Source: an uncultured Pelagibacteraceae bacterium
GTDB taxonomy: Bacteria > Pseudomonadota > Alphaproteobacteria > Pelagibacterales > Pelagibacteraceae
Assembly (NCBI GenBank): GCA_902558815.1
Contig: CACEFF010000001.1
Span: 1-64,000, forward strand
Direction: 5' to 3'
DNA length: 64,000 nucleotides
A program made the translations under genes and the position numbers. Shown here piece after piece: positions 59,840-64,000 of the stretch; within the stretch, counting starts at the first letter, position 1; each line of letters begins with the position of its first letter. The notes beneath the pieces are model-generated. The model did no database searches. It was not told the origin of the DNA and saw only the letters and a program-made list of their open reading frames with translations.

Positions 59840-60819
59840 CAATTTTTTTCTAAATATTTAACAATTTTTTTTGTAAATGAAGGAAGCACATAATTATCTA
59901 ATTTTTTTTCATCAACCCAATAAGGTGTATGAAATTTTCTTATATTTTTTGAGTATTGAATTTTAATATTCATATTCATATTTGATAATTTTATATTTAA
60001 ATTTTCATTAAAATTTTTTGGTTGAGATAATTCTTCCATAGGAAATATTGTTAGATTTTTTAGAAAATTAAACTTGGTATTTTTAATTAATAAATATCTT
60101 TGATCTTTTTTAAAAACTTTTAAAAGAAAATACTTGTCTATATTCTTTTTATTATTCTTTTTTAAATAAAAATCTTTTTTTTTAAATGCCATACACTTAT
60201 TAGATATTGGACATTTATAACATGACGGATTAGTTGGTTTACATATTAATGCACCTAACTCCATTAGTGCCTGGGCATAATCACTAGGTCTTGATGATAT
60301 TCCAAATATGGATTTTTTTTTAATTAGATTGTCTTTTTGAATATCTTTCTTTTTTTTTAAATACAAATATCTTTTTAAAACTCTTTCTATATTTCCATCC
60401 AATGGAATGTAAGGTTTATTAAAGGCTATAGCTAAAATAGCGCTTGCTGTATAATTTCCTATACCAGGCAACGATATTAAATCTGCGAAACTATCAGGTA
60501 TTTTTCCTTTAAAATTTTTAGTAACTATTTGAGCAGTTTTTTTTAAATTTTTCGCTCTAGAGTAATATCCTAGACCTTCCCAAAGTTTCAGAAGCTTCTT
60601 ATTTTGAACTCCTGAGAGAGATTTTAAATCTGGAACATTTTTTATAAATCGTTTGAAATAAGGAATTACAGTTACAACCTGGGTTTGTTGTAACATAAAT
60701 TCACTCACCAATGTATAATACTGCCTTTTTTGTTGAGAAACATTTTTTCGCCAAGGTAAAGATCTTTTATTTAAATCATACCAATTAAGAATTTTTTTTG
60801 TTACTAATTGTTCTTTCAT
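59839..60819 (-). CDS. mutY: A/G-specific adenine DNA glycosylase
   Basis: Removes adenine paired with 8-oxoguanine. From the ATG at 60819 the protein has 326 residues: catalytic Glu in LVSEFMLQQTQV, the helix-hairpin-helix/GPD region LISLPGIGNYTASAILAIAF with the catalytic Asp in PLDGNIERV, and the 4Fe-4S cluster ligands C-x6-C-x2-C-x5-C in CKPTNPSCYKCPISNKC. A C-terminal domain (NUDIX-like) follows. The frame is open to 60864, but the WYDLNKRSLPWR motif sits at the right distance from the ATG chosen. Confidence 0.94.
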   Translation of the reverse strand: MKEQLVTKKILNWYDLNKRSLPWRKNVSQQKRQYYTLVSEFMLQQTQVVTVIPYFKRFIKNVPDLKSLSGVQNKKLLKLWEGLGYYSRAKNLKKTAQIVTKNFKGKIPDSFADLISLPGIGNYTASAILAIAFNKPYIPLDGNIERVLKRYLYLKKKKDIQKDNLIKKKSIFGISSRPSDYAQALMELGALICKPTNPSCYKCPISNKCMAFKKKDFYLKKNNKKNIDKYFLLKVFKKDQRYLLIKNTKFNFLKNLTIFPMEELSQPKNFNENLNIKLSNMNMNIKIQYSKNIRKFHTPYWVDEKKLDNYVLPSFTKKIVKYLEKN

Positions 60820-61308
60820 ATGCAATTTAAAAAATATACTAAGCAGAGAATTAGAACCATTCAAGGATTAAGATCACTAAAAGACACTTTGCCAAAAAAC
60901 ATTAGAAAAGTGATAAACAAAAGAGGGCAGATTTATTCTGAAACTTTAAATAATTGGAAATATATTGTAGGAGAAAATTTATTTAATGTTTGTTTTCCAA
61001 AATCTTACAAAAATTCAAATAGTTTTAGTGTCAGTACTTTATTAATAATGGTCAAAAGAGGTCACGAAGTAGATTTGGAATATTCAAAAAAAAATATAAT
61101 CGATAGGATGAATGCATTTTTTGGGAATACAGTTGTTGAAAAAATTAAATTTACTAGCTTTAATGATGAAAAAAAAATTACCCCTGAAGAAAATAAAATA
61201 AAAACTAATGTGACAAATAATGAATATAGAAATAAGATAAATGATGTTAAAAATCAAAAAATAAAAAAATCATTACTTGAATTAACTAAAGTATTTAAAA
61301 AAAAATGA
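60820..61308 (+). CDS. DUF721/DciA-family protein
   Basis: 162 residues of the DUF721 family, which includes DciA, a loader-type partner of the replicative helicase DnaB. The recognisable part is ETLNNWKYIVGENLFNVCFPKS and the following SVSTLLIMVKRGHEVDLEYSKKNIIDRMNAFFG strand-helix pattern. The C-terminal third is a Lys/Asn-rich, probably disordered tail. The mutY / DUF721 / DsbA-like / smc run is conserved in alphaproteobacteria. ATG at 60820 abuts the mutY ATG on the other strand (CATATG). Confidence 0.8.
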   Translation: MQFKKYTKQRIRTIQGLRSLKDTLPKNIRKVINKRGQIYSETLNNWKYIVGENLFNVCFPKSYKNSNSFSVSTLLIMVKRGHEVDLEYSKKNIIDRMNAFFGNTVVEKIKFTSFNDEKKITPEENKIKTNVTNNEYRNKINDVKNQKIKKSLLELTKVFKKK

Positions 61309-61880
61309 AAAAAATTTTTATAATTCTTATTTTATTTTTTGGATTAGAAACCCATATGAATGCTGAAATTAAAAGAATAATTTCAGGGAATAAAAATGCT
61401 AAAATTACAATTATTGCATATGAGTCTTTAACTTGTAGTCATTGCGCAGATTTTCATAATGATGTTTATCCTCAACTTAAAAAAGATTATATTGATACAG
61501 GTCTTGCTAAAATAGAATTTAGACATTTCCCATTAGATATAGCAGCCTTTAATGCGTCAAAAATTTCCCAATGTAAACAAGATCAAAGTTTAGAAATTTT
61601 GGAGTCTTTATATTCAAATCAACAAGCTTGGGTGAAAGGAAATACTGTTGAAGAGTTAAATGAAAATCTTAAAAGATTTATTAAAAAAGAGGGATTTAAA
61701 GTAGATTTCGAAAAATGTATTATTAATAAAGAAATAGAAGATTTTGTTTTAAACGATCGAATCGAAGGAACTAAAAACTTCAAAATAAATGCTACTCCTA
61801 CGATAATTATTAACAATGAAAAGTTTGAAAAATCGCTTAATTATAAAAATTTAAAAAAATCTCTTGAAAAACTGATATAA
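61305..61880 (+). CDS. DsbA-family thiol-disulfide oxidoreductase, exported
   Basis: 191 residues with a signal peptide (about 1-20), then the thioredoxin-like DsbA_4 domain: IAYESLTCSHCADFH gives the active site C44-S-H-C47, and ATPTIIIN gives the cis-Pro loop. A second Cys pair (SQCKQDQ, EKCI) is typical of the family. It probably forms or isomerises disulfides in periplasmic proteins. It overlaps the DUF721 gene by 4 bp, and smc follows 8 bp later. Confidence 0.88.
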   Translation: MKKIFIILILFFGLETHMNAEIKRIISGNKNAKITIIAYESLTCSHCADFHNDVYPQLKKDYIDTGLAKIEFRHFPLDIAAFNASKISQCKQDQSLEILESLYSNQQAWVKGNTVEELNENLKRFIKKEGFKVDFEKCIINKEIEDFVLNDRIEGTKNFKINATPTIIINNEKFEKSLNYKNLKKSLEKLI

Positions 61881-61888
61881 GTTAAATT

Positions 61889-64000
61889 ATGGAGTTTAAA
61901 AAAATCCAGCTAAATGGATTTAAATCTTTTGCAGATAAAACTAATTTCTTAATTGAAGATGGTCTAACTGGAATAGTAGGTCCAAACGGCTGTGGTAAAT
62001 CTAATATAGTAGAATCTCTTAGATGGGTAATGGGAGAAACATCTGCAAAAAGTATGAGAGGATCTGGAATGGAAGATGTAATATTTTCAGGTACTTCAAA
62101 TAAAGCTTCTAAAAATATTGCAGAGGTTACAGTTACAGTTGCCAATGAAAAGAACGAGGGTCCCGTTCAATTTAGAGAACTCGATGAAGTAAATGTTAGA
62201 AGAAAAATTGAAAAAGAAAAAGGCTCTAAGTTTTATATAAACGACAAAGAAATTAGGGCAAGAGATGCTCAAATGTTTTTTGCAGATTTATCCACCGGAG
62301 CTCATTCACCATCTATGATTAGTCAAGGTCGTATAGGTGCACTTGTTACTGCAAAACCAACTGATAGAAGAGCAATTTTAGAAGAGGCAGCAGGTATATC
62401 GGGCTTACATGTTAGAAGGCATGAGGCAGAATTAAGATTAAGTGCAGCAGAAAACAATCTAAAAAGGGCAGATGAATTAAGGAGACAACAAGAGAAGCAA
62501 TTGGCGAATTTACAAAAACAAGCAGAAGAGGCGACTAAATATAAAGACATATCTGATGAAATAAAAAAAGTGGAGGCAGGTTTATATTATTTAAAATTAT
62601 TAGAAATAGATAAAGAAATCAGAATTGAAAATGAAATTAATACTGAAGCAGAGGAAGAAGTAAGTGGTTTCAATAACAAAATTTTTGAAATCGAAAGTAT
62701 GATTAAATTTGAAATAGAAAAAGTAACACCTCTAAGAGAAAAAAATATTGAAAACCTCTCAAAAATTCAAAGGCTTAACTTAGAGCTTCAAGGTTTGGAT
62801 GAGGAAAAAACAAGAATTCAAGATGAAATACAAAATATAAAAAAAACTCTTCACACTTTTGATGATGATATCAGTAGAGAAAAAGGAATAATTATTGATG
62901 CGAATTCCAATGAAAAAAGACTTAAAGAAGAAAAAAAAGAATTAATTGAAATTGATTCTAAGTACTATGAGACTGAAAAGCATTCTAACGAAGATTTAGA
63001 TGGAGCTAAGAACAGACTAAATTTAGAAATAGATAAAGTAAAAGAATTAATTAATTTACAAAAAAATCAAGAAGCAATATCTGTTCTAGATAAGTGTAAA
63101 GTAATTATAGAGGAATATGCAGATAGTTACAGCAAAAATCAAAATATCAAAAAAGAGTCAATAAAAAGAAATGAAAGAATTAATATTATAGATAAAGAAA
63201 TAGAAAGCTGGAAAAATTTGCTCTTAAATTCAGAGAAGATGGTTACAGAACTAAGTGATAGAAAAAATAAATTGAATTTACAGTTAGAAAGATTAGACAA
63301 TCAACCCAAGTTACAAGCTGAAAAAAAAGGTCAAATTTCTGAGGGTCTTAGAATTTCTGAACAAGAAAAAACTGATAATGAAACAATTATAGGTTCTACA
63401 GATGAAAAAATAGAAACTTTAAGATCCCAATTAAATGAAATTCAAGAGCAATCAATTCAAATCAGAGAACGAAAAGCAAGTTCTGGTGCAACGATAGAGG
63501 GGCTCAAAAAACGAAAAAATGATCTTGTTGATAGAATTAACTCAGAATTAAATTTAAAAGAGGATAATATTTTAGAAAATTCTAATCTTTTTGGAAAAGA
63601 AGAGCTTCCAGATGCAGTTAATCAAGAAGATTTATTAGATAAAAAAAAACAAGAGAGAGAAAAATTAGGGTCAGTGAATTTAAAAGCTGATGAGGAAACA
63701 AATAAATATGAAATGGAAATTAAAAAGATGGAGCAAGATCGAGCAGATTTAGTTACTGCAATTACTAAATTAAAAGAAAGTATTAATGAATTAAATCAAA
63801 AAGGTAGAGAAAGATTAATTGAAGCATTTGATAAGGTTAATAGAAAGTTTAATGAAGTTTATACTAAATTATTTAATGGAGGTAATGCTAAACTAGAATT
63901 GGTAGATTCAGATGATCCACTAGAAGCAGGTTTAGAAATGTTGGTAAGTCCTCCAGGTAAAAGACTTCAGTCCATAACTTTATTATCTGGTGGTGAACAA
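61889..64000 (+). CDS. smc: SMC-type chromosome segregation ATPase, apparently hinge-less, 3' end beyond window
   Basis: Head ATPase and coiled coils of a chromosome-organising SMC. The 704 codons in the window have the Walker A motif GPNGCGKS (31-38), the SGTSNKASKNIAEV region, the Q-loop-like SPSMISQGRIG, and EEAAGISGLHVRR at the start of the coiled coil. Residues about 165-590 are charged helix, then LGSVNLKADEE (about 594-604) and the ABC signature LSGGEQ at 699-704, which normally lie far later. No hinge domain is visible between the arms. Position after the DsbA-like gene is the usual smc place. Confidence 0.93.
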   Translation, partial: MEFKKIQLNGFKSFADKTNFLIEDGLTGIVGPNGCGKSNIVESLRWVMGETSAKSMRGSGMEDVIFSGTSNKASKNIAEVTVTVANEKNEGPVQFRELDEVNVRRKIEKEKGSKFYINDKEIRARDAQMFFADLSTGAHSPSMISQGRIGALVTAKPTDRRAILEEAAGISGLHVRRHEAELRLSAAENNLKRADELRRQQEKQLANLQKQAEEATKYKDISDEIKKVEAGLYYLKLLEIDKEIRIENEINTEAEEEVSGFNNKIFEIESMIKFEIEKVTPLREKNIENLSKIQRLNLELQGLDEEKTRIQDEIQNIKKTLHTFDDDISREKGIIIDANSNEKRLKEEKKELIEIDSKYYETEKHSNEDLDGAKNRLNLEIDKVKELINLQKNQEAISVLDKCKVIIEEYADSYSKNQNIKKESIKRNERINIIDKEIESWKNLLLNSEKMVTELSDRKNKLNLQLERLDNQPKLQAEKKGQISEGLRISEQEKTDNETIIGSTDEKIETLRSQLNEIQEQSIQIRERKASSGATIEGLKKRKNDLVDRINSELNLKEDNILENSNLFGKEELPDAVNQEDLLDKKKQEREKLGSVNLKADEETNKYEMEIKKMEQDRADLVTAITKLKESINELNQKGRERLIEAFDKVNRKFNEVYTKLFNGGNAKLELVDSDDPLEAGLEMLVSPPGKRLQSITLLSGGEQ

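Follow-up and report, generated by a model that had tools for sequence, protein, structure and literature searches.

A Hinge-Less Smc Protein with Two Exact Tip Lengths in SAR11 Bacteria

The smc Locus and Its Partners

The analyzed DNA is a stretch of 64,000 nucleotides (the window) from a Pelagibacteraceae (SAR11) genome, with an smc gene at its end (Table 1). The reading frame stays open through the end of the window, which holds 704 residues, and on the contig it is closed by a stop codon at 64285, 285 bases beyond the window, giving a product of 798 amino acids. The initial annotation had described a continuous frame with a Walker A motif at residue 31 and the signature LSGGEQ at residues 699 to 704, and the translation places both motifs at the same positions. 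Its figure for usual bacterial SMC proteins, a signature near residue 1090, has to be corrected for this class: eight of nine long alphaproteobacterial SMCs carry it at residues 1052 to 1066 and the ninth at approximately residue 1003, with start codons not assigned in all cases. The gene is located downstream of DciA-like and thioredoxin-like genes (window 60808–61880; L012:6300–8645), and it is followed by genes that we take to be ATP synthase genes (L012:6300–8645).

Table 1. Features of the smc gene in the window, with the evidence for each.
Feature	Position	Strand	Basis
smc gene, 704 of 798 codons in the window	61889..64000	+	Frame on the contig; NCBIfam TIGR02168, 658.9 bits
Walker A GPNGCGKSN, residues 31–39	61979..62005	+	Translation
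N-terminal arm helix, residues 173–389	62405..63055	+	AlphaFold2 model
Tip, residues 366–416: predicted helical hairpin in the place of the hinge	62984..63136	+	AlphaFold2, hydrophobic pattern, no hinge match
Tip turn, residues 390–392	63056..63064	+	AlphaFold2 model
C-terminal arm helices, residues 393–470 and 472–553	63065..63547	+	AlphaFold2 model
ABC signature LSGGEQ, residues 699–704, reaching the window edge	63983..64000	+	Translation

The 798-residue protein passed the NCBIfam equivalog for bacterial Smc (TIGR02168) with 658.9 bits at a cut-off of 567.35, whereas Rad50 models reached at most 42.8 bits; among the 25 listed of its 37 NCBIfam matches, no RecN model was present. A profile search identified smc as the sole gene above the SMC_N cut-off in this genome, and the 80 best of 351 relatives found were all assigned to Pelagibacteraceae, Pelagibacterales or Candidatus Pelagibacter. 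A check for ScpA and ScpB had been suggested earlier, and both were found together with ParB: scpA and scpB are adjacent to each other on another contig of this genome, the one genome in which ScpB was sought. ScpA was detected by Pfam in all 16 SAR11 genomes and in 19 of 20 genomes overall, with G291 (family f30) as the sole miss, and ParB was present in 13 of 13 SAR11 genomes and in 16 of 16 overall.

Absence of the Hinge

Most models of SMC motors assume two arms joined at the hinge, a domain that has long been thought essential for joining the two SMC halves. The hinge profile PF06470 gave no match in the 798-residue protein even at E-values up to 10. The single weak match in the whole genome (15.1 bits at a cut-off of 22.5, contig C8) was rejected as a hinge, as it runs antisense to an open reading frame that is presumably transporter-like. 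PF06470 was nevertheless discarded as the only test for hinge absence, since it also scores weakly on the long SMCs of the class, with 17.1 to 29.2 bits in five genomes, two of them above the cut-off. To account for this weakness in Alphaproteobacteria, a class-specific hinge profile was built from nine long alphaproteobacterial SMCs (1104–1169 amino acids).

With this profile, 105 SMC proteins were scored, comprising the nine training sequences, two held-out short-armed SMCs and 94 others (91 distinct SAR11 SMCs, two partial SAR11 frames and L077 from family f23). The training sequences reached 177 to 206 bits and the two held-out proteins 98 and 71 bits, so that the hinge was found in both, while none of the 94 others exceeded 1.1 bits. 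When the search was extended to whole genomes, a hinge region was detected in none of the 16 SAR11 genomes and not in the f23 genome either (17 genomes in total), and it was detected in all six controls, three of which (G088, G204 and G291) were outside the profile training. Judged from these sequence searches, the hinge is absent here and in both sampled families of the order. The initial annotation had proposed a missing hinge and had named a hinge-profile match as one observation that would speak against it; PF06470, the class-specific profile and the genome-wide search all bear the proposal out, with no such match in the protein, the SAR11 SMCs or the 16 genomes.

Two Tip Lengths and Their Predicted Structure

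Within the genus of this genome, 30 distinct SMCs have exactly 798 residues and 35 have exactly 857. All 65 proteins have 362 residues before the tip and 382 after it, leaving a tip of 54 or 113 residues, and the difference between the two forms is confined wholly to the tip. The earlier description of a short, hinge-free SMC stands, but it had overlooked that the genus holds two exact tip lengths. Genus g202 has SMCs of 812 and 859 residues with tips of 67 and 114, and the other genera are represented by 800 to 814 (g201), 809 (g5), and 880 and 881 residues (g199 and g200). SMCs of the sister family have 863 to 864 residues.

The 798 form was modeled by AlphaFold2 from 52 sequences (mean pLDDT 73.2, pTM 0.34). 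The heads were modeled poorly, and therefore no conclusions are drawn from them. An unbroken arm helix of 217 residues is predicted that ends in a bare hairpin tip (block pLDDT 80–85), in agreement with the short hairpin that the initial annotation had envisaged in place of the hinge. From the helical rise over approximately 217 residues, the arm length is estimated at about 32 nm. For the 857 form (36 sequences, mean pLDDT 73.6, pTM 0.39), the model has a helix at 173–392, a loop, short helices at 401–418 and 422–443, and a further helix at 446–529, which together suggest a small tip of four helices, predicted less confidently than that of the 798 form (block pLDDT 56–78, residues 381–460). 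The inner hairpin of this form carries a motif resembling the tip of the 798 form. Among the 50 Foldseek matches listed for each model, most were SMC heads and complexes, and they were uninformative with regards to the tip.

The short tip has a fixed pattern. Positions 377, 381, 384, 387, 388, 397, 400, 407 and 410 are occupied by large hydrophobic residues in 30 of 30 short-form proteins, and these nine positions are hydrophobic in 97–100% of 77 distinct named proteins, a set overlapping with the 30. A396 is invariant in the 30 proteins and is kept in 75 of the 77. A CxxC motif within residues 341–520 was found in none of 177 SMC sequences below 900 amino acids (duplicates and three non-SAR11 sequences included). 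A Rad50-like hook was rejected on these grounds, and in this respect the earlier suggestion of a Rad50-like arm pair finds no support.

Distribution and Origin of the Hinge Loss

SAR11 cells are some of the most abundant in the ocean. Within the order, 220 of 248 surveyed genomes gave an SMC match at an E-value of 1e-40, and among good genomes the match was found in 138 of 149. The 28 genomes with no match, 20 of which are listed, likely reflect assembly gaps, because all 11 single-contig genomes in the survey table carry the gene. No frame above 864 residues occurred among those listed, a few of which were below 410 amino acids, and 20 further-searched genomes contained no frame above 891. 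A full-length SMC in related genomes, which the initial annotation regarded as evidence of a local deletion or assembly artefact, was not encountered among the rows listed.

In the survey of the class, 164 of 241 genomes had an SMC head match at an E-value of 1e-30, and most of the listed frames were near 1150 to 1200 residues, while some were shorter fragments. SMCs that are short but intact occurred in the SAR11 order and in families f23 (817 amino acids), f127 (881) and f30 (869). Here, the hinge is missing in the SAR11 families f1 and f2 and in f23, and it is retained in f127 and f30 (L078:1670–4312 and L079:2050–4656, the two held-out proteins described above). These two proteins come near the SAR11 SMCs in total length but keep their hinge, and they therefore count as short-armed only.

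On a tree of the heads only (24 rows), SAR11 SMCs are monophyletic with a support of 97/85. As they form one clade, a single hinge loss before the SAR11 order diversified would be the simplest reading. The f23 protein (L077:1983–4433, genome G081) has a long branch on this tree, and the support for a joint clade of f23 and SAR11 is 27/81. ScpA and ParB are present in G081, a genome of 89% completeness and 6% contamination.

Intactness and Selection

The same form recurs across relatives: of 351 found, the 80 top-ranking named records each have an intact frame of 798 residues, although these loci were picked by similarity to a 798-residue query. It also occurs on the single-contig genome G246. 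From 291 short-form gene pairs with 86–98.5% DNA identity (some genes being present under two loci), dN/dS was 0.020 for the heads, 0.049 for the arms and 0.098 for the tip. These ratios indicate that smc is under strong purifying selection, and that the tip is its fastest-evolving part yet constrained. In two relatives, L020 (G015) and L025 (G014), smc is interrupted by stop codons, from which one could argue that the gene is an assembly artefact, a degenerating copy or the product of a local deletion. Against the recurring 798 form, the single contig of G246 and dN/dS values far below 1, such an origin is hardly credible, and both artefact and pseudogene were rejected.

Comparison with Known Systems

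With canonical Smc of the Smc-ScpAB complex (TIGR02168), the SAR11 protein shares the head motifs, the equivalog score, ScpA and ScpB, ParB and a predicted long coiled-coil arm. It differs by the absence of a hinge, by a length of approximately 798 instead of 1150 residues, and by an arm helix of approximately 217 residues. Due to the missing hinge, we file it as a hinge-less derivative of Smc and not as canonical Smc. Burmann (2017; PMC5344682) described SMC arm lengths as multimodal, with prokaryotic modes of 238, 341 and 515 residues. Rad50/SbcC likewise combines a head and an arm without an SMC hinge, but carries a CxxC zinc hook that is missing in SAR11 SMCs.

A further likeness is to the hinge-less SMCs that Sussfeld (2025; PMC12153180) reported in marine Actinobacteria, with which the SAR11 protein shares the SMC head and fold, the lack of hinge and CxxC, and the ocean host, whereas the hosts belong to another phylum and the two are likened by description, not by sequence. 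With its head and coiled coil and neither hinge nor CxxC, the SAR11 SMC has the features of this class. SAR11, Pelagibacter and Alphaproteobacteria are absent from the main text of that study, and in the parts of it drawn on here, partners, selection and tip alleles are not treated, which are facts that the SAR11 case supplies. A hinge-less SMC of SAR11 was not found in print among open-access full texts (without subscription journals and preprints). With SAR11, a second lineage with a hinge-less SMC is added to the marine Actinobacteria.

Pairing without a Hinge

With the rest of Smc-ScpAB-ParB kept, SAR11 is a natural system in which to ask what elements of the ring are required. Our main reading, to which we assign a probability of about one half, is a functional Smc-ScpAB that forms no hinge-closed ring and is paired by the kleisin, the heads and the arms. 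Before diversification of the order, a hinge-bearing ancestral Smc would have lost the hinge along with some of each arm, leaving a head and a two-helix arm of approximately 217 residues, predicted to be capped by a plain helical hairpin. Two copies could be held by ScpA-ScpB bridging the heads, with ATP-driven head engagement and side-by-side arm contacts adding to the pairing, and the tips would provide at most a small contact. The complex might act as a ParB-loaded rod or tongs and not as a hinge-closed ring; work on Bacillus subtilis Smc by Diebold-Durand (2017; PMC5526789) counts in favor of this reading. As B. subtilis Smc is non-functional once hinge dimerization is abolished (PMC5344682), tips that are not linked would set the SAR11 protein clearly apart.

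The hairpin could instead be a replacement dimerization module, with the tips packing as a small helical bundle and the ring closed by a minimal hinge. This deserves serious weight, at odds of roughly one in three: the tip pattern is fixed, including A396, and L387 and I397 near the apex are hydrophobic though outside the assigned core of the coiled coil, possibly a sign that the tips touch each other. The similar motif on the inner hairpin of the long form points in the same direction, and in B. subtilis a Rad50 zinc hook in place of the Smc hinge allowed normal growth (Burmann 2017; PMC5344682). Against this, the tip evolves fastest (0.098 versus 0.020 in the heads) and varies in length and sequence among genera. 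That a separate protein, unlike the hinge in sequence, joins the two tips appears improbable; the otherwise complete set of ScpA, ScpB and ParB would leave room for it, but no hinge-like sequence was found elsewhere in the 16 SAR11 genomes by a search that is blind to unrelated proteins.

Possible Exchange of Tips between Lineages

On a tree calculated without the tip, the 798/857 character has to change six times in the genus, and at least seven changes are required for the short class overall even when only starred branches are counted; the tree was a quick one (LG+G4, SH-aLRT only) with 25 of 88 inner branches open. Segment-wise nearest neighbors were determined for 11 genes. In L125, the nearest neighbor was an 857-type gene for 11 of 12 flank segments and a 798-type gene for the remaining one, and the three segments beside and across the tip had 798-type genes as nearest neighbors. 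L130 was alike with a wider block, where three N-terminal and four C-terminal segments were nearest to the 857 type, one was a tie, and seven inner segments were nearest to the 798 type. For both genes, the flank margins amount to 1–7 points, and the tip comparison itself favors the same length class. The tips of L125 and L130 were probably exchanged by homologous recombination. The alternative that both lengths arose by repeated independent indels of identical size, with length under strict selection, and not by cassette exchange, can draw on the six switches and on the nine of 11 genes without a clear breakpoint; with 798-like tip segments between 857-like flanks in L125 and L130, we regard it as unlikely.

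A wider reading that we put forward tentatively, at odds of roughly one in three, would be a ParB-loaded Smc-ScpAB that is never hinge-closed, with two tip lengths as alleles recombining between lineages; taken together with the Actinobacteria, loss of the hinge would then be convergent among streamlined marine bacteria. The two exact tip lengths offer a way to ask if arm length is subject to tuning. If the wider reading is true, neither stable dimerization at the hinge nor a topological ring would be indispensable, and the tip alleles would amount to a natural arm-length tuning experiment. A tip of 54 residues was also found in an SMC of genus g201 (L168:223–2622, genome G467) that groups next to genus g1 on the tree, which may be due to either an intergenus transfer or a genome placement problem.
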